Positions 29,440-40,893 of a stretch of DNA of 64,000 nucleotides are shown here, piece by piece. The notes beneath the pieces were generated by a model that was not told the DNA's origin, ran no database searches, and saw only the letters and a program-made list of their open reading frames with translations. The translations under genes and the position numbers were made by a program. The first letter of the stretch is position 1; every line of letters begins with the position of its first letter. The DNA is from Microbispora bryophytorum (GTDB lineage: Bacteria; Actinomycetota; Actinomycetes; Streptosporangiales; Streptosporangiaceae). Where the stretch lies: contig NZ_VIRL01000021.1 in assembly GCF_006874465.1 (NCBI RefSeq), positions 1 to 64,000 on the forward strand, in the 5' to 3' direction.

Positions 29440-30297
29440 TCAGCCCTTGATGGCCCCCGCGGTCAGGCCGCTGACGAGCTGACGCTCGGCCACGGCGTAG
29501 AAGCCGAGGGCGGGCAGCATCGCGACCACGATGTAGGCCATGACCCGTGCGACGTCCGTCGCATACTGCCCCTGGAACTGCTGGACGCCCAGCGGGATGG
29601 TGAAGAGACTGTCGTCGCTGAACACCACGAGCGGCAGCATGAACTGGTTCCAGCTGTTCACGACGGCCAGAACGGAGACCGTGGCGACCGCGGGCCGGGC
29701 CATCGGCAGCAGGATCCGCCAGAAGAAGCCGAACGAAGAGCACCCGTCGAGGATCGCCGCCTCCTCGATCTCCCCCGGGATGGCCCGGAAGAAGCCGCGC
29801 AGGATGATGATCGTCATCGGCATGCCGAAGGCCGCCTGCGGGAGGATCACGCCGAGCGGGTTGTCGAGCAGCCCGAACATCCGCAGCAGCACGAACAGCG
29901 GCAGGATCGCCACCGCGAACGGGAACATGAGCCCGGCGGCGAACATCGTGAACAGCGCCTCACGCCCCCGGAAGGCGAAGCGCGCGAACACGTAGGCCGC
30001 CAGCGCGGACACCGCGACGACCACGACGGTGGTCAGCACCGCGATGTAGGTGCTGTTCCAGAGCATGCGCCAGAACGACCCCGAGGCGAGGATGCTCGCG
30101 TAGTTCTCCGGCACCCAGGGGGAGGGCAGGCCGATCGGGTTGCTCGAGAGCTGCCGGGTGGTCTTGAAACCGCCCAGCACGCCGTAGAGCAGCGGGACAC
30201 CGACGAACAACGCCGTGACCACGACGATCGCGTGCAGGGACAGGCTACGCAGCGGACCGCCGGACGTCGGGGACTGCCTGTGGCGGTTGGCGCTCAT
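29440..30297 (-). CDS. Carbohydrate ABC transporter permease (MalG type)
   Basis: 285-residue integral membrane subunit of a CUT1-type sugar importer with about six helices. The cytoplasmic EAA loop, EEAAILDGCSSFGFFW, which docks the ATPase, is intact, and the N-terminal YGVLGGFKTTRQLSSNPIGLP layout is MalG-like. The start overlaps the stop of the upstream permease gene by 4 bp. The cognate ATPase is not in the window, which is usual in actinomycetes where a shared MsiK energises many such systems (established knowledge). Confidence 0.95.
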   Translation of the reverse strand: MSANRHRQSPTSGGPLRSLSLHAIVVVTALFVGVPLLYGVLGGFKTTRQLSSNPIGLPSPWVPENYASILASGSFWRMLWNSTYIAVLTTVVVVAVSALAAYVFARFAFRGREALFTMFAAGLMFPFAVAILPLFVLLRMFGLLDNPLGVILPQAAFGMPMTIIILRGFFRAIPGEIEEAAILDGCSSFGFFWRILLPMARPAVATVSVLAVVNSWNQFMLPLVVFSDDSLFTIPLGVQQFQGQYATDVARVMAYIVVAMLPALGFYAVAERQLVSGLTAGAIKG

Positions 30298-31220
30298 CGC
30301 TGGTCTCGCAGCACGGTGGAGGCTCCTTCGAGATCACGGCGCATGACGTATCGCTGGTAGAGGACCGCGAACACGAGGCTGATGAGGAACATCACCACGC
30401 TGATCGCGCTCGCGTAGCCGACCTGGAAACGTTTGAAGCCGAACTGGAACATCGTGACGGCCATGGTCTCGGAGGAGTGCGAGGGACCTCCGCCGGTGAT
30501 GATCCAGATCAGGTCGAACAGCTGGATCGCACCGATGACCGACAGGAACACACTGATGCGGATCGTGGGTCCGAGCAGCGGCAGCGTGACGTAGCGGAAG
30601 ACGTTCCACCCTGTCGCGCCGTCGATCTGGGCGGCCTCGGTGAGCTCCTTCGGGATTCCCTGGCGCCCGGCGATGTACAAGATCATGTGGAAGCCGAAGT
30701 ACTTCCACGTCATGACGATGAACACCGACATCATGACCGTCGACGGGTCGGCGAACCAGTCGAGCTGGTCGATCCCAAACCAGCCGAGAATGTAGTTGGC
30801 CAGGCCGTCCGTGGGCGAAAGGATCATCATGAACAGGACCGCGGTGATCGCCTCGGACAGCATGTACGGGGCGAAGAACAGCAGGCGGAAGAACGCCCGG
30901 CCGTAGATCCTCTGGTTGAGCAGCATGGCGATGCCCAGCGAGAGGGGCAGCTGTATCACCACCGACAAGATGATCAGCAGCGCGCCGTGCCACAGGTCGC
31001 CCAGGAAGACCTCGTCCGCCAGCAGGCGGGTGAAGTTCGCCATGCCGATGAAGTCGGTCGGCAGCCCGCGCATGCCGTTCCACTTGAACACGCTCGCGTA
31101 GAAGGCGAGCAGGATCGGCGCCACGACGAGCCCGAAGAAGAGCACGAGCGCGGGAAGCAGGAACAGAAGGATCGTGGTGAACCCCCGGAGCCTGAGGCTC
31201 CGGGGTCTCGTCGTCTTCAC
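30294..31220 (-). CDS. Carbohydrate ABC transporter permease (MalF type)
   Basis: 308-residue membrane subunit partnering the MalG-type permease. The EAA motif reads ELTEAAQIDGATGWNVF; six predicted helices start with FTTILLFLLPALVLFFGLVV. It lies 7 bp after the binding-protein gene and overlaps the next permease, so binding protein, MalF and MalG form one operon. Confidence 0.95.
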   Translation of the reverse strand: MKTTRPRSLRLRGFTTILLFLLPALVLFFGLVVAPILLAFYASVFKWNGMRGLPTDFIGMANFTRLLADEVFLGDLWHGALLIILSVVIQLPLSLGIAMLLNQRIYGRAFFRLLFFAPYMLSEAITAVLFMMILSPTDGLANYILGWFGIDQLDWFADPSTVMMSVFIVMTWKYFGFHMILYIAGRQGIPKELTEAAQIDGATGWNVFRYVTLPLLGPTIRISVFLSVIGAIQLFDLIWIITGGGPSHSSETMAVTMFQFGFKRFQVGYASAISVVMFLISLVFAVLYQRYVMRRDLEGASTVLRDQR

Positions 31221-31227
31221 GCGACAG

Positions 31228-32514
31228 TTACTCCGACTTCGCGGTTTCCGTGATGGCCTGCGCCACCTGCTCGGGCGTCTTGGTCCCCCCGATCAGCTGG
31301 GCCACGGAGTCGTTGACCTCCTGGCCGACGGCCGGCGGGAACGCCTGGTCGAGGTAGAGCTGGAACCCGGAGGCCCCGGCGAGGTTCTTGGCGACCACGC
31401 TCAGGTTCGGGTCGGTGACCGCGTCCTCCTCGCCCTTCAGCACCGGAAGCAGGCCACCGGTCGCGACGGCCTTGCGGTGCTCGGCGCTGTCGGTGAGGAA
31501 CTTCAGGAACTCGAGAGCCTCCGCGGGGGCGTCGGCCCCGATCGCGTAGCCGCCGCCGCCGCCGAAGGCGTCGGTGACCGCGCCCTGGCCGCCGTCGACC
31601 GCCGGGAAGGGGAAGAAGCCGAGGTCGTCGCCGAGGCCCTTGCCGGCGTCGTTCTGGACCGCGGGCGCCCACTGGCCCATCAGTTCCATGGCCGCCTTGC
31701 CGTCGCCCATCGTCGCGGCCTGGCCGCCCGGGTCGCCGTACGTCGCGCCGAGGTAGCCCTTCTGGAACGGCTGGAGATCGGCCAGTTCCTTGAGCTTCTG
31801 CCCCGCCTGGACGAAGGCCGGACCCGTGAAGTCCTTGCTGTCACCGGCCTGTTTGAGGGCGTCAAGGCCGCCGATCCGCATGGCGAGGTAGGCCCAGTAG
31901 TAGTGGCCCGGCCACTTGTCCTTTCCGCCGAGGGCTATCGGGGTGACGCCGGCCGCCTTGAGCTTCTTGACGTCGTCGATGAGCTGCGACCAGGTGCCCG
32001 GGGCCTCGGTGATTCCGGCCTTCTTGAACAGCGCCTTGTTGTACCAGAAGCCCACCATGCCGATGTCGTCCGGAATGGCGTACTGCTTGTCACCGACCTT
32101 GTACGCCGACAGCGCGGCGTCCGTGAAGGTGCCGAGCCAGGGGCCGGCGTCGGCGGTGAGGTCCTTGACCAGGCCCGCGTCCACCTGCTGGGCGAGCACG
32201 CCACCACCCCAGGTCTGGAAGATGTCGGGCGCCTTGCCGGACTGGGTGAGCGTCGTCAGCTTCGCCTTGAACGCCTCATTCTCGTAGGGAACGCTCTTGA
32301 TCGTAATGTTCGGGTGCGCCGCCTGGAAATCCTTGATCGCCTGAACGCCGTAGCTCTTCAGGGGGTCGGTGGTCCAGATATTCCAGAACTCGACGGTCAC
32401 CTTGCCGCCGGCTGAGCTCTTGCTCTCGCCGGCGTCGTTCCCGGTACTACCACATCCCCCGAGGACCAGTGCCGACGCCGCTAAGAGCGCCGCACCTCGC
32501 CGACTCAACTTCAC
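31228..32514 (-). CDS. Sugar ABC transporter lipoprotein binding protein (family 1)
   Basis: 428-residue extracytoplasmic lipoprotein that captures the sugar for the two permeases. The lipobox LVLGGC places the lipidated Cys at 21. Family 1 features include KVTVEFWNIWTTD, PDIFQTWGGGVLAQQVD, WYNKALFKKAGI and WPGHYYWAYLAMRIGG. The substrate is not provable from sequence; a xylo-oligosaccharide importer (BxlE-like) is plausible from the CGAA/TTCG operator upstream and the xylan-active secreted enzymes in the window. Confidence 0.93.
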   Translation of the reverse strand: MKLSRRGAALLAASALVLGGCGSTGNDAGESKSSAGGKVTVEFWNIWTTDPLKSYGVQAIKDFQAAHPNITIKSVPYENEAFKAKLTTLTQSGKAPDIFQTWGGGVLAQQVDAGLVKDLTADAGPWLGTFTDAALSAYKVGDKQYAIPDDIGMVGFWYNKALFKKAGITEAPGTWSQLIDDVKKLKAAGVTPIALGGKDKWPGHYYWAYLAMRIGGLDALKQAGDSKDFTGPAFVQAGQKLKELADLQPFQKGYLGATYGDPGGQAATMGDGKAAMELMGQWAPAVQNDAGKGLGDDLGFFPFPAVDGGQGAVTDAFGGGGGYAIGADAPAEALEFLKFLTDSAEHRKAVATGGLLPVLKGEEDAVTDPNLSVVAKNLAGASGFQLYLDQAFPPAVGQEVNDSVAQLIGGTKTPEQVAQAITETAKSE

Positions 32515-32874: not shown

Positions 32875-33474
32875 TCAGTGGGCGGCGGCGGTCGGGCGCT
32901 TGCCGTACGCGTGCTTGACGAGCTCGATCAGGACTTCCTTGCCCGATTCCCGCCTGCGCGCGTCGCACAGCATGATCGGGACGTCCGGGCCGAGGTTGAG
33001 CGCGAGCTTGACCTCGTCCAGGTCGAAGACCGGGGCGCCCTCGAAGCAGTTGACCGCGACGACGAAGGGCGTGCCCCGCCGCTCGAAGTAGTCGACGGAG
33101 GGGAAGCAGTCGGCGAGCCTGCGGGTGTCGGCCAGCACGACCGCGCCGAGCGCGCCCCGGGCGAGCTCGTCCCAGACGAACCAGAACCGCTCCTGGCCGG
33201 GGGTGCCGAAGAGGTAGAGGACGAAGTCCTGCCCGATGCTGATGCGGCCGAAGTCCATGGCGACCGTGGTGGTCGCCTTCGCCTCGACGCCGGACAGATC
33301 GTCGACGCCGACGCTGCGGTCGGTCAGCGTCTCCTCGGTGCGCAGCGGCCGGATCTCCGACACCGCGCCGACCATCGTGGTCTTGCCCACTCCGAAGCCT
33401 CCGGCGATCAGCAACTTGATCGCCGTGGGCATCTTCGGCGGGTTCTTCCCGGAGTCAGAGCGCGCGAAGGCCAT
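32875..33474 (-). CDS. Conservon GTPase CvnD (MglA-like small GTP-binding protein)
   Basis: 199-residue small GTPase, last gene of a four-gene conservon. P-loop GGFGVGKT at 25-32, switch region TTTVAMDFGRI, G3-like LFGTPGQERFWF, and VVAVNCFEG in place of the NKxD box. In conservons it pairs with the roadblock protein CvnB, which acts as its effector or GAP-like partner, as MglA/MglB do. Its start overlaps the CvnC end by 20 bp. The internal Met15 (MPTAIKLLI) may be the real start. Confidence 0.93.
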   Translation of the reverse strand: MAFARSDSGKNPPKMPTAIKLLIAGGFGVGKTTMVGAVSEIRPLRTEETLTDRSVGVDDLSGVEAKATTTVAMDFGRISIGQDFVLYLFGTPGQERFWFVWDELARGALGAVVLADTRRLADCFPSVDYFERRGTPFVVAVNCFEGAPVFDLDEVKLALNLGPDVPIMLCDARRRESGKEVLIELVKHAYGKRPTAAAH

Positions 33475-33829
33475 CGAGCACCGCCTTGTACATCCGCTCG
33501 TCGAGCACGTTCATCTCCGGTTGGGGCTGCTGCACGGCCACGAAACCCCGGTCGAACAGGTCGCCGAGGAGGACCCGGACGATTCCGGCCGGCAGGTCCA
33601 GATGGGCCGCGATCTCCGCGACCGACAGCGGCCTGCGGCACAGCCGCACGATCGCCTGATGCTCGGGGTCCAGCCCGATCTCGGCTCCCGTGGTGGGCCG
33701 GACGGTCACCGCGAGCGAGATGAGGTCGAAGCGATCCTGCGCCTCCGTACGGCCGCGCGCGATCACGTACGGCCGGATGGTCGGCGCGTCGAGCAAGCGC
33801 TCCTCGTCCGGGTTCCACTCGGTGTTCAC
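33455..33829 (-). CDS. Conservon protein CvnC (DUF742)
   Basis: 124-residue winged-helix-like DUF742 protein. IRPYVIARGRTEAQ matches the N-terminal RPY motif of the family; HQAIVRLCRRPLSVAEIAAHLDLPAGIVRVLLGDL is in form the conserved core. GTG 33829 starts within the CvnB stop (GTGA overlap). The DUF742 protein is a fixed third member of conservons, between the roadblock protein and the GTPase; its molecular role is not settled. Confidence 0.92.
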   Translation of the reverse strand: MNTEWNPDEERLLDAPTIRPYVIARGRTEAQDRFDLISLAVTVRPTTGAEIGLDPEHQAIVRLCRRPLSVAEIAAHLDLPAGIVRVLLGDLFDRGFVAVQQPQPEMNVLDERMYKAVLDGLRAL

Positions 33830-34260
33830 AGGCGGACCTCTCTCCCGGTGGCCCGGTCGATCGTGGTCCGGGCGGGCGAGGTCAGGTACTGCCCGACGCG
33901 CACGACGAGCATGGCCATCTCGTAGGCCACCAGGCCGACGTCGGCGTCTCCCGAGCAGAGGACGGCCAGGCAGGCGCCCTGACCCGCCACGGTCACGAGC
34001 AGGTAGGCCGACTTCATCTCCACGATGGTCTGCCGTACGGACCCGCCCTGGAAGCGTTCGCCGACTCCACGCGCCAGGCTCTGCAGGCCGGAGGCGACGG
34101 CGGACAGGTGCTCGGCGTCCTCCACGAGAAGTCCCTGCGAGCCGGCCAGCAGCAGGCCGTCGGTGGACAGCACGATGCCGTGCTCGACCTCGCGGATCCG
34201 TGCGACGAGGTCGTCGAGCAGCCATGCGAGGTCCGCGGAGGCACCGGTCTTCTGCGTCAC
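33826..34260 (-). CDS. Conservon roadblock/LC7 protein CvnB
   Basis: 144-residue roadblock-domain protein: DLAWLLDDLVARIREVEHGIVLSTDGLLLA, then ASGLQSLARGVGERF and SAYLLVTVAGQGACLAVLCSGDADVGLVAYEMAMLV, as in CvnB and MglB. It is predicted to bind the CvnD GTPase and the CvnA kinase-like protein at the membrane. The start overlaps the CvnA stop by 4 bp. Confidence 0.95.
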   Translation of the reverse strand: MTQKTGASADLAWLLDDLVARIREVEHGIVLSTDGLLLAGSQGLLVEDAEHLSAVASGLQSLARGVGERFQGGSVRQTIVEMKSAYLLVTVAGQGACLAVLCSGDADVGLVAYEMAMLVVRVGQYLTSPARTTIDRATGREVRL

Positions 34261-36563
34261 AGGTTGTCCTCCTCGTCACTCAGCAGCTTCGCCGCCTCGG
34301 ATCTGCCACGCCTCGTCCCCGACTGGAACGAGCCCATGATCTTGCGGATGTCGTCCGGCGAGCGGTCCTCCTGGTCCTCCGCCTCGTCCCCGTTCGTCGA
34401 CTCCTCGGCGAGCGCGGGGGCGAGATTGGCCTGCGGCACCCGGAAGGGCAGGCCCGACGGGGTGAACCCGGCCGAGGACGCGGAACCGTCCGGATCGGCG
34501 CCGCCGGGCGGTGGGGCGCTCTGCACAGGCCTGGGCGGCTCGGGAGCCCTTGGCACAGGAACCACCTCCTGAGCTGGTTCGGGGGCCGCATCGGGCGCAC
34601 CGACCAGCGCGATCCTCCGGGACCCGGGCTCCCGCCGCGGGAGCCCGGAACCGGTCTCCTCCTCGGGCAGGGCCTCCCCGCCCTCGATGACGAGGTCGCG
34701 CGGCAGCAGCACGACCGCGGTCGTGCCGCCGTACGGCGACGCCTTGAGCGACACCCTGATCCCGTGGCGCTCGGCCAGACGGCTGACGACGTACAGGCCC
34801 AGCCGGGCGGTGCTCGACAGGTTGAACTCGGGCGGGTCGGCGATCCGCTGGTTGGTCGCCTCCAGGTCCTCGGCGCTCATCCCGAGGCCGCGGTCCTCGA
34901 TCTCGATCGCGTAGCCGCTGGCCACCACCTGGCCGCCCACCTGCACCATCGTGTACGGCGGGGAGAACGACACCGCGTTCTCGATCAGCTCGGCGAGCAG
35001 GTGGATGAGGTCGCCCACCGCGCGTCCGATGAGCGCGGTCTCCCCCATCGGCATCACGGTGACGCGGGTGTAGTCCTCGACCTCGGCCAGCGCGCCGCGT
35101 ACGACGTCGACCATCGGCACCGAGCGCCGCCAGGCGCGGGCGGGGGACGCCCCCGACAAGACGATGAGGTTCTCGGCGTTGCGCCGCATGCGGGTCGCGA
35201 GGTGGTCGATGCGGAACAGGTCCTTCAGCTCCGCCGGGTCCGACTCGCGCCGCTCCATCACGTCGAGCAGCGTGAGCTGGCGGTGCACCAGCGACTGCGT
35301 ACGCCGGGCGAGGCTGAGCAGGATGTCGCGGATGCTCTGCCGGAGCTGGGCCTCCTCGACGGCGGTGCGGATGGCGGTCTCCTGCACGGTGTTGAACGCC
35401 GCGCCCACCTGTCCGATGACGTCGGGACCGAAGTCGAGCGGCGGCGCCTCGGCCTTGACGTCGACCTTCTCGCCCTGGGCGAGGCGGGCGACCACTCCGG
35501 GCAGCCGCTCGTTGGCCAGTTCGAGCGCGGCCTCGCGCAGCTTCTCCAGCTGACGCACCAGGGCCCGGGCCGTGGTGACCGACAGGACGATCGACGCGAT
35601 GACCGCCACCAGGCCGAGCACACCGGCCAGCAGGAGGCGGGCGAAGACGGCGACGGCGATCGGGACGGCCCGTTCGACCAGCGCGTCACCGGCGTCGATG
35701 ACCACCTTCTGGAGCTGGGTCATCGCCGCGTCCGCGGCACCCCGCCACTGCGTCTCCGCCACCATCGGCGGACGGCCGACCTGCCTGCTGAGCGAGAGCT
35801 GGTCTTCGAGGCTGCGGAGGGTGGTCACCGAGGGCGACTTCCTCCACCTGTCCAGCGCCGCGCGGTCGTCCGGCGGCAGGTCGGCCGCGGCCCGGTCGAG
35901 CTCGAACCGGGCGATACCCACCATTTGCGTGAACTGCCGGTGGTCCTGCTCGGTGAACCGGCCCTCGGCGAAGATGCCGGCGATCATCGCGTCCTCGCGG
36001 GCGAGCAGTTCGCGCGCCCGGCTCATGGCCGACAGCGTGCGGCCATCCTTGGCGAGCGTGGCGTCGTCGAGCGTGGCGACCGCGCCGTACATCGCGTCGA
36101 AGGAGTCCATGACGTCGCTGTAGGCGTCTTCCGTCCGCGTGCGGTCGAGTCGCCCGGCGTCGATGGCCGACCGGGTCTCGCGCAGGCCGTCCAGCCGCCG
36201 CAGCGTGTCGCTCAGGTGCCTCCTCAGCGCGTCGTCGGCCGCGAGGTGAACCTTGTCGCTGGTGGCCGACTCCTTGAAGGTGCCCACCGCGGCGTCCGTG
36301 CGGGCCCGCTGGTCCTGTAGTTCCTTCCGCAGCACCCGGGCGGGGTCGGCGGCGCGGGTCACCGAGAGCCGGCGCTCGCGCTGCAGTTCCAGCAGCAGCG
36401 GCTCGCTCGGCTGGGCGACCTCGCTGTCGATGGTGGTGGCCCAGATGAGGTTGACGCCCTCCCGGACGGTGACCCACGCCGCGAACGCCCACAGGGCGGT
36501 CAGTGACACCAGCAGGGCCGCGACCTTGGTTCGCACACGCGAATTCCGGAAGCGCATAGACAT
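34257..36563 (-). CDS. Conservon sensor kinase-like protein CvnA
   Basis: 768-residue membrane sensor. TM1 is at 13-32; a nitrate/nitrite-sensor-like (NIT) extracytoplasmic helical domain runs from about 45 to 295 (LELQRERRLSVTR is the NIT hallmark); TM2 is at 299-330, followed by HAMP. The kinase part has a DHp-like LVHRQLTLLDVMERRE (425-440) and an ATPase with HLLAELIENA (N box, 521-530), EDRGLGM (G1) and ARLGLYV (G2). A disordered Pro/Ala-rich tail of about 130 residues follows. It is first in the conservon and has 200 bp of leader after the diterpene cyclase gene. Confidence 0.95.
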   Translation of the reverse strand: MSMRFRNSRVRTKVAALLVSLTALWAFAAWVTVREGVNLIWATTIDSEVAQPSEPLLLELQRERRLSVTRAADPARVLRKELQDQRARTDAAVGTFKESATSDKVHLAADDALRRHLSDTLRRLDGLRETRSAIDAGRLDRTRTEDAYSDVMDSFDAMYGAVATLDDATLAKDGRTLSAMSRARELLAREDAMIAGIFAEGRFTEQDHRQFTQMVGIARFELDRAAADLPPDDRAALDRWRKSPSVTTLRSLEDQLSLSRQVGRPPMVAETQWRGAADAAMTQLQKVVIDAGDALVERAVPIAVAVFARLLLAGVLGLVAVIASIVLSVTTARALVRQLEKLREAALELANERLPGVVARLAQGEKVDVKAEAPPLDFGPDVIGQVGAAFNTVQETAIRTAVEEAQLRQSIRDILLSLARRTQSLVHRQLTLLDVMERRESDPAELKDLFRIDHLATRMRRNAENLIVLSGASPARAWRRSVPMVDVVRGALAEVEDYTRVTVMPMGETALIGRAVGDLIHLLAELIENAVSFSPPYTMVQVGGQVVASGYAIEIEDRGLGMSAEDLEATNQRIADPPEFNLSSTARLGLYVVSRLAERHGIRVSLKASPYGGTTAVVLLPRDLVIEGGEALPEEETGSGLPRREPGSRRIALVGAPDAAPEPAQEVVPVPRAPEPPRPVQSAPPPGGADPDGSASSAGFTPSGLPFRVPQANLAPALAEESTNGDEAEDQEDRSPDDIRKIMGSFQSGTRRGRSEAAKLLSDEEDNL

Positions 36564-36764
36564 ACCACCCAGCAGTCAGAACGCCCTAACAGCGCGTTTA
36601 CCGGCCATTAACAATCGCCCGCCGTATAAGGCAGCCCGGACTGTCCAGCGATAAGACCGCGCCGCGCCTCGCGCCACCCTAGCAAAGGGCTGGAAAACCA
36701 CTCAACCCGCAAGATCCGGCGAGAGCATGTCCGAATAAAGCGAAATGCAGATCAGCCCAGGTGA

Positions 36765-38351
36765 TCATAGTTGCCCAGCTTGTTGGACAACAAGTCCACT
36801 GGACTGTGCGAGATGCAGGGCGGCGAGCACGGCCGCCCGGACGACCGCCCGGGGCAGGTAGAGGTCCTTGTCGTGCCAGAGCGCCGGCCCGTCCGCCTGG
36901 TCGGCCGCGCGCAGCAGATAGCGGTACCCCCGGCGCACGGCCTCCGGGCGGCCTCCGTCGCCGGTCAAGGGGCCGGTCATGAGCAGGAGCTGCACGGCGT
37001 ACGCCGTCTCCTCGGCGGTGCCGCCCCACCGGCCCCAGGAGCCGTCCTCACGCTGGGTGGCGAGCACCCACCGTACGGCCGACTGCACCGCGACCACCGA
37101 TTCCGGCCCGCCGAACTCGTACAGCGCGAGCGCGCAGGACACCGTCGCGTAGTAGGGCGAGGCGTGCCAGCGGTCGTCCCAGCTTCCGTCGGCCCGCTGC
37201 CGCTCGCGCAGCCAGGCGGCGAGCCTGCCCAGCACCATGGCGTAGCGGGGTGCCTGCTCCGGCCGGGCCGCCGCGTACTGGCCGAAGGCGTCCAGCACGT
37301 GAGCGTTCACACTGACCGAGGAACCCTCCTCGCCCTGCCAGGTGCAAAAGTGCGTCGGCGTCTCGAAGGCCCACAGGCTGTCCGGCTCGTACGGCACGCC
37401 GAGCAGCGCCAGCGCGTACAGTGCGACCGAGGTGGTGTCGGCGTCGGGCGGCAGCCCCGCTCCGGCGGGCGTGCCCTCGGGGCCGATCGCCGCGCGGAGG
37501 TCGGCCAGCATCTCCGGCGGCACGTCGAACTGGATGCCCGCACGGGCGAGCCAGCTCAGCACCCAGCCGCGCTCGAACACGGTGATCGGCAGGCCCACCG
37601 GAACCGGGCCGCCGTGCCGCAGCGCCACCGCCTCCAGATAGCGCCGGGCGTGGTGGCCGGGATCGGGCAGGGCGCAGCCGCTCAGCCAGGCCGCGGTCGC
37701 CGCCGGCGAGGCTCCGACCGTTCCGATCGAGGTCGGGTTGACCGACGGGGCGCTGGCCGCCGATCGGCCGGCCACCTCAAGCGCGTGCAGGAGTTTGTCC
37801 GGCGGGGCGCCGCCGGACTCCAGGCGCTGCCGGATCAGGATGAGCGGCCCCTCGCTCATCCCCTCGGGGATCGGCAGGCGGCCGATCTCGCATTCGCTCA
37901 GGCCGTCCAGGTGCGCGTTGATGAGCGACACGAGCGCCGGCACGATGATCTCGATCGCGGGGGTGTCGGGCAGCGTGGCGACCGCCGTCTCCGCCAGCCA
38001 GCCGGACAGCACGCGCAGCCCGCGCCGGACCGCGCCGATCAGGACGTCCCGGTCCACGCCGTTGTCGCCCCTGCTGAGGACCGACAGCAACGCCTCGGTG
38101 GCGCTCAGGGTCGGGACCAGGCCGTAGCCGTCGGGCACGCCCCATGACCCGTCGGGCTGTTGCGTGGCGACGAGGTACGCCACCCGCTCGTCGTGGCCCA
38201 GGAGCCAGGGGGCCAGGGTGACGAGCCGCCCGGTCTCGTAGACGGACGGCGACACCTGGCCCCAGGGCCGGGACATCAGGTCCCGCATCAGCTCGCCCAC
38301 GGCCGCCGCCACGTCCACCGGCCCGGCAAGGGAGACATCACGCACGTTCAA
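36765..38351 (-). CDS. Class II diterpene cyclase (copalyl/halimadienyl diphosphate synthase-like)
   Basis: 528-residue protonation-initiated terpene cyclase, expected to cyclise geranylgeranyl diphosphate to a bicyclic diphosphate. The acid motif is DADTT at 303-307 (DxDTT rather than DxDD), the same form I recall for the mycobacterial type-B cyclase Rv3377c. QW-type repeats occur at 64-71 (QQPDGSWG), 384-391 and 433-440, followed by GGTAEETAYAVQLL; WHASPYYAT (395-403) and ALWHDKDLYLPRAVVRAAVLAAL in form also match that enzyme. The start overlaps the class I synthase by 14 bp. The skeleton (labdane, halimane or clerodane) cannot be fixed from sequence. Confidence 0.9.
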   Translation of the reverse strand: MNVRDVSLAGPVDVAAAVGELMRDLMSRPWGQVSPSVYETGRLVTLAPWLLGHDERVAYLVATQQPDGSWGVPDGYGLVPTLSATEALLSVLSRGDNGVDRDVLIGAVRRGLRVLSGWLAETAVATLPDTPAIEIIVPALVSLINAHLDGLSECEIGRLPIPEGMSEGPLILIRQRLESGGAPPDKLLHALEVAGRSAASAPSVNPTSIGTVGASPAATAAWLSGCALPDPGHHARRYLEAVALRHGGPVPVGLPITVFERGWVLSWLARAGIQFDVPPEMLADLRAAIGPEGTPAGAGLPPDADTTSVALYALALLGVPYEPDSLWAFETPTHFCTWQGEEGSSVSVNAHVLDAFGQYAAARPEQAPRYAMVLGRLAAWLRERQRADGSWDDRWHASPYYATVSCALALYEFGGPESVVAVQSAVRWVLATQREDGSWGRWGGTAEETAYAVQLLLMTGPLTGDGGRPEAVRRGYRYLLRAADQADGPALWHDKDLYLPRAVVRAAVLAALHLAQSSGLVVQQAGQL

Positions 38352-39234
38352 GCTCGCCCCAATAGTCCACGAGCCCGTAGAAGCCCGTGTTGAAACCGAT
38401 CTGTCGTTCGAGGTAGGCCGCAGCGCGCGGGCTGCGCGCTCGTATGGGCCCGAGAAGAGTCAGGCAGCGGCCGCGAATCTCGTTCATGCGCGCGGTCACT
38501 TCCGCGACGCCGGCGCCGAACGCCAGCGCGTTGGCGTCGCCCTGGGCGCGCTCCCGCTCCCGGGTGGCCAGGTCGTTGAGCAGGCGCAGGTAGCGCTGTA
38601 CCTCGTCGCTGACCTGCATGAGCTCGTCGATGTGGCCGACCGTCCAGGGGTCGCCCGTCCTGATCCAGTGGGACACGTTCACGAAGGAGGATCCGCAGCC
38701 GTCCGCGCCGTCGAGGTACTCGTCCAAACAGACGGGCGCGTCCTCCTCCTTCCACCGCCACTCCCGCACCATCGCGCGCAGCGTCCGCCCGAGCCGGTCG
38801 AGCCAGACCGGCCGCAGGGCGGCGAACGCGGGCGCCGCCGACAGGTCGTCCCGCAGGTCGGTGAGGAAGCGCACCACGGCGGGGGCGTCCCCGCCCGGGC
38901 CGGTCTCGGCCGCCGCGAGGCACTCGGCGACCAGCGCCTCCGCGTCCGCGCGCGAGCCCGCGACCTGGTCCACCAGGCGGTCGACCGCGAAGATCCACAG
39001 CGACGCGCGGCCGACCGCGCGCAGTTCGTCCGGCGATGCCGAGGGCGAGCCGAACGCGGTGACCATCGACAACGCGGCGAAGAACGCCGGATCGAACGGC
39101 CTGGCCGGGAAGAGCTCGCCGTACGCCGCGGCGCTGGCTTGGAGATCCCGCTGGCACCGCGTGGCGAGCGCACACGTCCTGCCCATATCCGCGGCGAGAG
39201 CCGTCTCCTGCTCCGCGAGGTGCTTGACAATCAT
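38338..39234 (-). CDS. Class I terpene synthase
   Basis: 298-residue ionisation-type terpene synthase, predicted to convert the class II product by loss of diphosphate. The Asp-rich motif is unusual: FAVDRLVDQ gives D85xxxD89 instead of DDxxD. The second metal triad NDLATRERE (220-228) matches ND(L/I)xSxxxE. EWRW (158-161) and NVSHWIR are typical helices. ATG 39234 overlaps the P450 stop (ATGA), and its stop overlaps the class II gene, so all three are coupled. Confidence 0.9.
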   Translation of the reverse strand: MIVKHLAEQETALAADMGRTCALATRCQRDLQASAAAYGELFPARPFDPAFFAALSMVTAFGSPSASPDELRAVGRASLWIFAVDRLVDQVAGSRADAEALVAECLAAAETGPGGDAPAVVRFLTDLRDDLSAAPAFAALRPVWLDRLGRTLRAMVREWRWKEEDAPVCLDEYLDGADGCGSSFVNVSHWIRTGDPWTVGHIDELMQVSDEVQRYLRLLNDLATRERERAQGDANALAFGAGVAEVTARMNEIRGRCLTLLGPIRARSPRAAAYLERQIGFNTGFYGLVDYWGELERA

Positions 39235-40592
39235 CTGCGGGCACGCTCGACGAACGTCAATTTGACCTTCTGGTTCGGCCGCAGAGAGGAGGCGAGCCGC
39301 GGCCTGACCGGCCTCGATGCCGTGAGCACGGGACGGTAGCGGCTCAGCAGGCCGGCCATGAGCAGTTGCGCCTCGATCATGAACAGGTGCTGGCCGAGGC
39401 ACTGGTGGGGGCCGCCGCCGAACGGGAAGTAGGCCCAGCGGTGCCGCCGCTCCCGCTCCCGCTCCGGCGCGAAGCGCTCGGGATCGAACTCCTCCGGCCG
39501 GTCCCAGAACCCCTCGAGCCGGTGCGTGAGGTAGGGGCTGACCATCACCGTGGAGCCGGCCGTGATCCTGACCCCGTCGATCTCGTCCGTCTCCACCGCC
39601 TTGCGCGGCAGGATCCAGCCCGGTGGATAGAGGCGTACCAGTTCGGACAGGAACATCTTCAGGAAGCGCAGCTTGGGCAGATGAGACGGCTGCACCATCT
39701 CCGTCCCGACCACCTCGTCGAGCTCCTCGTAAATCTTCGCCGCCAGGTCGGGATGCTCGTCGAGCGCGACCCACACCCACGTGAGCGCGGTCGCGGAGGT
39801 CTCGGTCGACGCGCCGTGCATGCTGACCATGTCGTCCCTGATCCGCCGGTCCCCCACCTCGCCGGGTTCGTCCGCGCGGGCACGGCAGATCGCCGACACC
39901 ACGTCCTTGCCCTCGTCCGCTGTGCGGCGGGCCTCGTGCACCCGGGGATAGACCACAGTGTTGATCGTCTCGATGGACCGGCGGAAGGGCCGGTCACCCG
40001 GCAGCGGCACCGTGCTCGGGACGAACGGCAGCAGCAGACGCGGCCACGTGGCCGTCACCGCCACCTCGTACGCGGGAATGAGCCGGGCGATGTCGTCCCT
40101 GGTGATCCGGTCGCCGAAGAAGAGCCGCACGATCGTCGGATGGACGATGGCCGAGATACCGTCGACGACGTCGAACGGTTCCCCGGGGCGCACGACGGCG
40201 TCGATCTGCTCGGCAAGGATCTCGGCCATGCGCTCGGCCAGCGAGTCGACGTACTTCGCGGTGAACAGGGGCTGCAGGACCCGGCGGCTCTCCTGCCAGG
40301 TCTCGCCGTCCGACAGGATGCCGCCACCCAGCAGCGGGACCAGCGGATCCCAGAACATGCCCTCGCGAACATAGTTGGGCTGGTTGGTCCGCAGCACGTG
40401 CTGGACGTGGTCCGGGTGGGTCACCAGATAAGGCCGGAACGGTCCCGTGTTGAGCCGGACGAGCTTGCCGGCGGCCTGCCTGCCGACCTCTTCGAAGGCG
40501 GAGACCGGATCGCGTGGGTGCTTCGCGAGAAGCCGATAAAAGGGAAGAATCTCCGCATTTCGGGTCGGTCTCGGACCAACATCGATCGACAT
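39231..40592 (-). CDS. Cytochrome P450 of the terpene operon
   Basis: 453-residue P450, likely oxidising the diterpene made by the two cyclases. The haem site is FPFGGGPHQCLGQ (Cys398), the I-helix HGASTET (259-265), ExxR at 317-320 (ELVR) and the PERF motif FDPERFAPERE. No ferredoxin or reductase gene lies nearby, so redox partners come from elsewhere. First gene of the operon, with its promoter probably at 40631-40660. P450s are frequent neighbours of conservons, but here it belongs by coupling to the terpene genes. Confidence 0.95.
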   Translation of the reverse strand: MSIDVGPRPTRNAEILPFYRLLAKHPRDPVSAFEEVGRQAAGKLVRLNTGPFRPYLVTHPDHVQHVLRTNQPNYVREGMFWDPLVPLLGGGILSDGETWQESRRVLQPLFTAKYVDSLAERMAEILAEQIDAVVRPGEPFDVVDGISAIVHPTIVRLFFGDRITRDDIARLIPAYEVAVTATWPRLLLPFVPSTVPLPGDRPFRRSIETINTVVYPRVHEARRTADEGKDVVSAICRARADEPGEVGDRRIRDDMVSMHGASTETSATALTWVWVALDEHPDLAAKIYEELDEVVGTEMVQPSHLPKLRFLKMFLSELVRLYPPGWILPRKAVETDEIDGVRITAGSTVMVSPYLTHRLEGFWDRPEEFDPERFAPERERERRHRWAYFPFGGGPHQCLGQHLFMIEAQLLMAGLLSRYRPVLTASRPVRPRLASSLRPNQKVKLTFVERARR

Positions 40593-40630
40593 CCGGTCTG
40601 CTCCCCACCTGACGAACGCCCAATTCGCGA

Positions 40631-40660
40631 AGTATCACATGATCTAATCGGATTGATCAA
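40631..40660 (-). promoter_or_regulatory. Candidate promoter of the terpene operon
   Basis: On the minus strand, TTGATC (40660-40655) and GATACT (40636-40631) are separated by 18 bp, 38 bp before the P450 start. TTGATCAA (40653-40660) is an 8-bp palindrome within it and might be an operator half. Confidence 0.4.
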
Positions 40661-40800: not shown

Positions 40801-40893
40801 TCAGGCGTGGCTGGTCACCAGCAGCGCGATGCCCACGAGGATGACGATGGGAATCAGCCACACCACGACCTCGCCGAGGAACTCCTTGTACAT
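40801..40893 (-). CDS. 30-residue single-span membrane peptide
   Basis: ATG 40893 begins a 30-residue peptide: a short amphipathic head (MYKEFLGEV) and one membrane helix (VVWLIPIVILVGIALLV) ending TSHA. Support comes from the AGAGG ribosome site upstream, a strong terminator directly after, and a composition unlike random high-GC translation. It is an independent transcript between the terpene operon and the esterase gene; the 282 bp upstream are gene-free. Function unknown; such peptides often modulate a membrane complex or act as toxins. Confidence 0.65.
   Translation of the reverse strand: MYKEFLGEVVVWLIPIVILVGIALLVTSHA

Follow-up and report, generated by a model that had tools for sequence, protein, structure and literature searches.

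Conservons such as Cvn8 and Cvn9 consist of cvnA, cvnB, cvnC and cvnD in that order, encoding histidine-kinase-like, roadblock, DUF742 and small GTPase proteins, and it is already known that conservons can be tied to biosynthetic clusters. In the available parts of the papers cited here, Cvn8 is described beside a lanthipeptide cluster (PMC8510531, PMC13343842), and in indole prenyltransferase clusters a conservon is always found upstream of the biosynthetic genes (PMC3617294). Terp1-type operons are likewise known: the class I enzyme, class II enzyme and cytochrome P450 (P450) of terp1 yield isopimara-8,15-dien-19-ol, and Sat1646 is an isopimaradiene synthase from a Salinispora cluster almost identical to terp1 (PMC9814573). 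In comQXPA of Bacillus, variation is found in the proteins that make the signal and in the N-terminal sensor of the kinase, while the cytoplasmic part of the kinase is conserved; an interaction with the signal is predicted for the variable N-terminus of ComP (PMC4008528). The locus described here lies on the minus strand at 32875-40592 of a 64,000-nucleotide stretch of Microbispora bryophytorum DNA (RefSeq assembly GCF_006874465.1, contig NZ_VIRL01000021.1, positions 1 to 64,000; the whole stretch is called the window below), and joins a P450, a class I diterpene synthase and a class II diterpene cyclase to a conservon. All seven genes, in the order P450, class I, class II and then CvnA-B-C-D, had been read in the original prediction and were confirmed, the order and the four domain types of the conservon being recovered by domain search:

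39231-40592, minus strand: cytochrome P450, terp1 (CYP1051A1)-like; Pfam p450 2.8e-66, 44% identity to the P450 of locus L160
38338-39234, minus strand: class I diterpene synthase, Sat1646-like; Terpene_syn_C_2 3.1e-9, phmmer 4.7e-69 to 7e4n
36765-38351, minus strand: class II diterpene cyclase, TTG start; SQHop_cyclase_C 7e-16, phmmer 4.9e-123 to 5bp8
34257-36563, minus strand: CvnA, whole gene; NIT 7.6e-44, HATPase_c 1.1e-12
35679-36419, minus strand: CvnA residues 49-295, extracytoplasmic NIT-type sensor that covaries with the terpene genes; Pfam NIT, AlphaFold2 (AF2) model
34257-35678, minus strand: CvnA residues 296-768, comprising transmembrane segment 2 (TM2), linker and HATPase part; HATPase_c
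33826-34260, minus strand: CvnB, roadblock protein; Robl_LC7 2.3e-23
33455-33829, minus strand: CvnC, DUF742 protein, GTG start; DUF742 1.9e-33
32875-33474, minus strand: CvnD, small GTPase; ATP_bind_1 (PF03029) 1.6e-32, P-loop GGFGVGKTT in the translation

Comparison of this locus with its relatives revealed that the sensor half of CvnA varies together with the terpene enzymes. From these alignments we lean towards the view that the terp1-type diterpenoid cassette and a dedicated conservon of its own form one matched unit, in which CvnA would sense the diterpenoid that the pathway itself makes. The joint enzyme-sensor variation appears to give unexpected support to the suggestion in the original prediction that the locus is a candidate signal-metabolite system.

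Joint variation of the terpene enzymes and the CvnA sensor

Against the locus of M. hainanensis (L003), the P450, class I and class II of the window were each 90% identical and the CvnA sensor 87%; against that of M. catharanthi (L006) the values were 54, 52, 70 and 46%. The flanking genes were close to both L006 and L003 (short-chain dehydrogenase/reductase (SDR) 96 and 94%, FAD oxidoreductase 98 and 93%, solute-binding protein 96 and 93%), as were CvnA residues 401-640 (98 and 97%) and CvnB (94 and 97%). Nucleotide identity between the window and L006 was 93-98% in flanking genes, 64% in P450, 64% in class I, 75% in class II, 53% in the gap between class II and CvnA and 59% in the sensor; beyond the sensor it was 95% over CvnA residues 296-340, 97% over 401-640 and 96-97% in CvnB-D. 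Four successive 90-nucleotide bins of cvnA near the sensor end gave 48, 70, 94 and 100%. Since the flanks and kinase of L006 are nearly identical to those of the window and everything from the enzymes through the sensor is divergent, the three enzyme genes, the gap and the sensor appear to have been exchanged in situ as a single cassette that reaches to about TM2. Fast evolution of the sensor was rejected as the whole explanation: at the flanks and kinase part L006 and L003 are about equally close to the window (CvnB, at 94 against 97%, is the exception), yet the sensor of L006 differs, and the sensors of paralogous conservons are far less variable.

Among 12 Microbispora rows, in which L006 and G097 form an identical pair, there were three clear alleles and a fourth in M. 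oryzae. Allele I is carried by the window, L003 and L004, allele II by G065, G097/L006 and L009, and allele III by G119, G139, L052 and, more loosely, L021. The window sensor was 81-87% identical within its own allele and 42-51% to the other Microbispora alleles; CvnA residues 401-640 were 88-98% identical across the Microbispora loci, with a more variable tail (residues 641-768). Kinase identity pairs G065 with G119 (99%) and G097 with G139 (97%; cross pairs 93-94%), whereas the alleles pair G065 with G097 and G119 with G139, and from this disagreement we conclude that the cassette crossed between lineages.

In 12 swap pairs, hand-picked from five genera (Microbispora, Microtetraspora, Acrocarpospora, Actinomadura and Nonomuraea), the sensor bins (residues 61-300) were 17-63% identical, and in every pair identity jumped to 77-93% on passing from residues 271-300 to 301-330 of CvnA, with CvnB-D at 87-99%; the sensor bins of eight non-swap pairs were 40-97%. 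Where the kinase part was at least 94% identical (74 pairs), sensor identity was 0.38-0.48 in 35 pairs and 0.55-1.0 in 39, with none between. Lowering the kinase limit to at least 90% gave 175 pairs, of which 97 differed in both sensor and enzymes, 58 matched in both, 2 conflicted and 18 were mixed, a count made with cut-offs set after seeing the data and from locus pairs that are not independent. L157, L119, L146 and L147 were excluded from this count and from the count of sensor ends below, L157 for a suspected frameshift or calling error (against L143, its P450 was 33% and its sensor and class I 81-85% identical). L006/G097, L034/L119, L048/L146 and L073/L147 are identical in the compared blocks; the named loci and the G handles are partly the same genomes, and the locus sets are therefore not to be summed.

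Distances were also compared over 93 complete loci, with the sensor taken as CvnA residues 50-300. The sensor tracked class I and P450, and the kinase part tracked CvnB-D. With kinase and CvnB-D as controls, the rank-partial correlation of the sensor was 0.34 with class I, 0.38 with P450 and 0.26 with class II, values reached in none of 300 permutations; that of the kinase part with class I was -0.06. The sensor-enzyme correlation was clear in Nonomuraea (13 rows) and in the second family introduced below (27 rows). Two further conservons of the genus served as controls, with sensors 76-95% and kinases 80-98% identical, against 44-49% and 93-99% for the linked conservon between alleles. For the pair G065-G119, sensor and kinase were 46 and 99% identical in the linked conservon and 95 and 97% in a paralog.

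These results resemble comQXP-type systems in three respects. Maker genes and sensor part diverge jointly between close relatives, apart from the 2 conflicting and 18 mixed pairs among the 175. The kinase is conserved in five genera, and the flanks in the window's genus and a few near relatives. The polymorphism is specific to this receptor when set against two paralogs in the window's genus, and mildly so against one paralog in a second genus (g62).

Recurrence and integrity of the seven-gene block

The terpene-conservon pairing is old and general. Conservon genes lay downstream on the same strand in 80/80 of the best named loci, these being the best 80 of 354 among the matches listed and biased to close kin. 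In a sample of 150 genomes from the window's family, with the sensor half of CvnA as query and a cut-off of 200 bits, class II was found in 75 and this CvnA type in 76 (both in 74, neither in 73, one only in 3). Ten rows had been dropped from that count as second fragments of genes already counted, and the Fisher test on the co-occurrence ignores kinship. The CvnA match started 154-1252 bp downstream of the class II match on the same strand in 72 of the 74 pairs, and the order was rearranged in the other two (G067, G140). A second family, that of the "Micromonospora sp." locus L081, was represented by 121 genomes, with five second-fragment rows dropped. Here 35 of 42 class II places lay at most 751 bp from such a CvnA, 30 in tandem and 5 divergent; two of the 35, both in G551, have CvnA matches of 174-179 bits, under the 200-bit cut, and were added since they adjoin class II. 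The remaining seven, of which one (G556) lies close to the end of a contig, were unlinked. Drawing 394 genomes from across the class gave 20 with a class II gene, three of them outside the window's family: G331 (L107) has the entire block, G482 has no adjacent CvnA of this type and a weak cvnA/cvnD pair (27 and 48%) some kb upstream, and in G227 no conservon of this type was found.

The neighbourhood search thus placed the pairing in two families rather than in only one genome, and an accident of one genome was rejected on its recurrence in the 80 named loci, the window's family and the second family. DUF742 (cvnC-type) loci above the Pfam cut-off number 7 in the 7.85-Mb genome (137 contigs), this one included; with so few such loci in the genome and recurrence in many genomes, the adjacency exceeds chance. 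Among terp1-type operons, L160 (genome G719), which matches Sat1646 at 98%, carries the P450, class I and class II genes in that order, with CvnA-D directly downstream. No conservon was found within a 19.5-kb stretch around L164 (G730), a terp1-like operon near that of Salinispora and the one such case among the 20 loci that matched Sat1646 best; a DUF4241 gene follows class II there in place of the conservon. The loci compared as L160-type operons and for rearrangements were hand-chosen, with reading frames taken from tblastn matches.

Mere local synteny was rejected because flanking genes turn over between genera: a same-side homologous neighbour within 6 kb was shared by 191 of 1400 different-genus pairs and by 293 of 311 same-genus pairs, in a comparison of 59 named loci with both flanks (of 81) whose selection rested on the presence of the block. 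Nonomuraea loci lack the usual class I gene between P450 and class II, and may carry a different class I synthase on the opposite strand ahead of CvnA; a weak class I match was found there in 10 Nonomuraea loci and none at cut-off in 7, and the opposite-strand genes of L018 and L019 are terpene synthases by Pfam. The conservon is divergent beside P450 in L168 and L171, and beside class II in L126-L130. The sensor-coding end of cvnA was the nearer end in 125 of 126 loci, the remaining locus having no long cvnA within 5 kb. On a class II tree (104 rows, quick search) a conservon-downstream label needed 4 changes, against 16.8 in shuffles, with L063 scored as "other side" although its cvnB-D lie downstream; 5bp8 fell outside the conservon-linked clade, near L126-L128 and their divergent conservon. 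On a CvnA tree (84 rows, quick search) linked and unlinked rows were mixed, mainly in the second family, with 8 changes against 14.0 shuffled. These comparisons indicate that the block is behaving as a unit, and not just as old synteny.

Other arrangements were also seen. A second terpene-conservon pairing may be represented by L126, L127 and L128, where a class II gene nearer to 5bp8, with a DADDT or DCDDA motif, is accompanied by a P450 and a divergent conservon. L115 and L124 have conservon genes on both sides of the terpene genes, with class I and P450 inverted beside one conservon and class II beside a second cvnB-C-D set; the second cvnA of L124 is only a C-terminal piece. L165, like L174, L175 and L177, combines P450, class I and conservon genes but shows no recognised class II gene; the class I enzyme there may thus use another substrate or one supplied from elsewhere. 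In L068, L082 and L063 the cvnA by class II is reduced or weakly recognisable and cvnB-C-D are retained. L123 (G114) has a CvnA of this type but no terpene genes; judged by eye, two ROK-like genes and a sugar-isomerase-like gene lie upstream of it, and further on inositol-phosphate-synthase-like and UbiA-like open reading frames (ORFs). A common theme was sought among neighbours of unlinked CvnA relatives and none emerged (P450, MerR/PP2C, epimerase, RIO, GNAT).

Terpene enzymes, promoter-like sequences and surroundings

The terpene genes of the window are homologous to those of terp1 and in the same order. The ATG of class I overlaps the stop of P450 by 4 bp (ATGA), and class II overlaps class I by 14 bp. 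Window class II is 52% identical to that of L160 and 45% to 5bp8, its closest solved chain (phmmer 4.9e-123), an ent-copalyl diphosphate (ent-CPP) synthase that we take to be PtmT2. Its acid motif of the DxDD/DxDT kind, DADTT at residue 303, occurs in 111 of 136 aligned class II rows, L160 included; DxDDT is found in 5 of the 7 unlinked relatives printed, and DSDDT in 5bp8. Window class I aligns with Sat1646 (7e4n) over 2-297 (phmmer 4.7e-69). Its Asp-rich and NDxx(S/T)xxx(E/D) metal motifs, VDRLVD and NDLATRERE, align to EDWQVD and NDLASYERD, and the metal-binding positions, Arg220 and Tyr288 are kept. At the Sat1646 pocket positions it has Ile84, Phe85, Gly182 and Cys183, the last replacing the effector Tyr183, changes of which in Sat1646 lowered yield or shifted deprotonation (PMC9814573, available part). 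Because these pocket residues differ, the product, probably an oxidised diterpene related to the pimaranes, may not be that of terp1. The compact class II/class I/P450 diterpenoid pathway that had been predicted is thus supported, 5bp8 and Sat1646 being its best solved relatives. The P450 is unlikely to be the conservon accessory CvnE, since CvnE/F genes accompany CvnA proteins without a sensor domain (PMC13343842, available part) and this CvnA carries a NIT domain (7.6e-44); by the same rule it should not need a CvnE/F helper.

The conservon had been placed 200 bp downstream of the terpene genes on the same strand, and a gap of 201 bp does separate class II from CvnA; the two halves nevertheless look like separate transcription units. 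Two promoter-like sequences were found:

36676-36705, minus strand: conservon promoter-like sequence, TTGAGT-N18-TAGGGT, inside the 201-bp class II-CvnA gap
40628-40660, minus strand: terpene-operon promoter-like sequence, an element with GATCATGTGATACTTCG at its end; TTGATC-N18-GATACT at 40631-40660

The pattern TTG[AC]NN-N16-19-TANNNT was present in 86 of 99 class II-CvnA gaps against 6.5 in shuffles, which for the promoter patterns preserve base composition only, and in 3 of 117 P450 upstream regions (5.5 expected). Upstream of P450, GTGATAC occurred in 63 of 117 regions against 1.5 in shuffles, and ATCATGTGATAC in 44 of 117 against 0. A single seven-gene operon was rejected as unlikely because the gap before CvnA holds this conserved promoter-like sequence, and the terpene and conservon halves are probably two transcription units. 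The 17-mer of the terpene element has one exact copy genome-wide. A wider regulon was rejected, there being besides that copy two with 2 mismatches, which lie in or against predicted ORFs, and 11 with 3 mismatches against 4 for a reversed control.

A sugar-type ABC importer (29440-32514) lies downstream of the block, and genes for a GDSL/CBM2 protein, an SDR, an EF-hand protein and a PucR regulator lie upstream. Pfam revealed no exporter or resistance-type gene within the seven-gene block. No prenyl diphosphate synthase was found among the window genes run against Pfam, which were a part of them, and the rest of the genome was not searched. CvnC (33455-33829, minus strand) has, besides DUF742, a Pfam HTH_IclR match barely over the family cut-off (23.1 against 22 bits). 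Upstream of P450 is a 30-residue ORF, MYKEFLGEVVVWLIPIVILVGIALLVTSHA (40801-40893, minus strand), by eye a small membrane peptide followed by a hairpin plus T-run; DNA resembling this region is present in L003, L004, L052 and L021.

Proposed product sensing, rival explanations and known systems

In the mechanism we propose, general metabolism would supply geranylgeranyl diphosphate. Going by enzyme family and by terp1, class II, with its DADTT acid motif, would cyclise this to a copalyl-type diphosphate, class I would convert it to a pimarane-related diterpene, and the P450 would oxidise that diterpene. Outside the membrane, the NIT-type domain of CvnA would read the diterpenoid, or something dependent on its structure; this step is proposed by analogy, because maker and sensor half covary as in comQXPA. 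CvnA would then shift the CvnD GTPase through CvnB and CvnC, following the published conservon model of a membrane complex (PMC13343842, available part), and the expression of target genes would change; the terpene operon, with its conserved promoter element as the point of control, is probably among them. Signalling would, we infer, be linked to the terpene product, and the locus would be a polymorphic signal-maker/receptor pair with a small terpenoid instead of a peptide and a conservon instead of a two-component system. It is possible, and we put it forward more tentatively than the matched unit itself, that diterpenoids of the terp1 type serve as strain-specific signals in at least two actinomycete families, each genus having several "dialects", and that the NIT sensor of a dedicated conservon reads them.

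A number of observations weigh against product sensing. The AF2 model of CvnA residues 1-330 (mean predicted local distance difference test score, pLDDT, 86.6) is a helical NIT-type domain; its nearest solved structure is NasR (4akk; E 1.1e-5, 18% identity), and Gln61, Glu63, Arg64 and Arg131 are invariant across 73 sensors. The NIT domain is named for nitrate sensing, and the NasR-like fold with these invariant residues could indicate a polar ligand. The sensor physically adjoins the terpene genes, and a recombination tract driven by the enzymes could carry it along. Weak residual correlations were seen between CvnB and class I (0.16; 0/300 permutations) and between the kinase part and class II (0.17; 2/300), the Microbispora sensor (9 rows) tracked class II (0.71) above class I (0.49), and in Actinomadura (8 rows) P450 alone was clear (0.81; class I 0.24, 34/300; class II 0.31, 18/300). 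The contrast with a paralog was mild in genus g62, where linked sensors were 65-85% and those of the paralog 79-89% identical. In the second family, 15 CvnA matches of at least 200 bits were not beside a class II gene; the linked loci L174, L175 and L177 have no recognised class II gene, and most of CvnA is missing in L068 and L082. No known DNA-binding regulator was found inside the block, and the terpene promoter element is absent in the second-family loci displayed and in some first-family loci. In the available part of PMC9814573, fermentations of the sat strain are reported to have yielded no detected diterpenoid.

The conservon could instead be a local regulator only, one that senses some other outside cue (a nitrate-like ion, envelope stress or a competitor) and switches the adjacent terpene operon, with a sensor that varies with habitat and not through product binding. 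Cvn8 represses its adjacent biosynthetic cluster (PMC8510531, PMC13343842, available parts), and the fold near NasR, the four invariant residues and the conserved terpene-operon promoter element with its one exact genome copy all fit such a role. We nonetheless consider this unlikely, as it leaves unexplained both the joint change of sensor and enzymes (97 + 58 concordant pairs, 2 conflicting and 18 mixed of 175) and why the two other conservons of the genus vary differently. Less likely again is hitch-hiking, in which selection for new chemistry drives homologous recombination of terpene cassettes, the tracts stop in the conserved kinase part of CvnA, and the sensor is dragged along unmatched. 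The sensor end of cvnA does face the terpene genes, class II and the gap are also within the replaced tract, and in Microbispora the sensor tracks its nearest gene, class II, best. Yet over the 93 rows it tracks P450 and class I above class II, though class II is nearer; adjacency has survived rearrangements; and an irrelevant sensor would be expected to stay conserved, with tracts free to stop before it, against a within-allele sensor identity of 81-87%.

Polymorphic maker/receptor cassettes are also expected for weapon-immunity pairs. An antibiotic-like diterpenoid, with the conservon as its matched sensor for immunity or dosage and strain competition as the source of the diversity, would account for the same data as product sensing. 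We regard this as very improbable; the seven-gene block contains no exporter or resistance-type gene, and its neighbours are mostly unshared between genera. Strain-specific diterpenoid signalling, the more tentative reading above, would if true represent a bacterial diterpenoid communication system and provide one conservon with a class of ligand. The locus offers a concrete, strain-matched candidate ligand for one class of conservons, together with a natural set of sensor alleles for testing it. It also suggests a controller for a terp1-type operon whose product went undetected in culture, and a possible handle to switch such operons on.

The terp1/sat operon of Salinispora (CYP1051A1, SaDTS/Sat1646, SaCPS) has the same three kinds of enzyme as the window in the same order, and to that extent the earlier suggestion of an undescribed system needs correcting: the three-gene operon is of a described type. 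The operon is described as class I, class II and P450 only, and the word conservon occurs 0 times in PMC9814573, although L160, the locus with the 98% match to Sat1646, also carries CvnA-D downstream and shares the DADTT motif with the window. In the open-licence literature searched, within the parts of the papers available, no report was found of the terpene-conservon pairing, its depth, a conservon beside terp1, or joint enzyme-sensor variation. 5bp8 belongs to the same class II family (45% identity) but has DSDDT where the window has DADTT and lies outside the main conservon-linked clade, and NasR, the best fold match of the CvnA sensor model, is a transcription antiterminator. Cvn8 and Cvn9 share the CvnA-B-C-D order and domains of the window conservon, which differs in being tied to a diterpene cassette, in its highly variable NIT sensor, and in having its P450 assigned to the pathway and not to CvnE. 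The indole prenyltransferase clusters differ in their prenylated indole chemistry, and joint sensor-enzyme variation is not mentioned in the available part of PMC3617294. In comQXPA a peptide pheromone acts with a two-component system and pherotype groups have been shown (PMC4008528, available part), whereas the locus in the window would pair a small terpenoid with a conservon.

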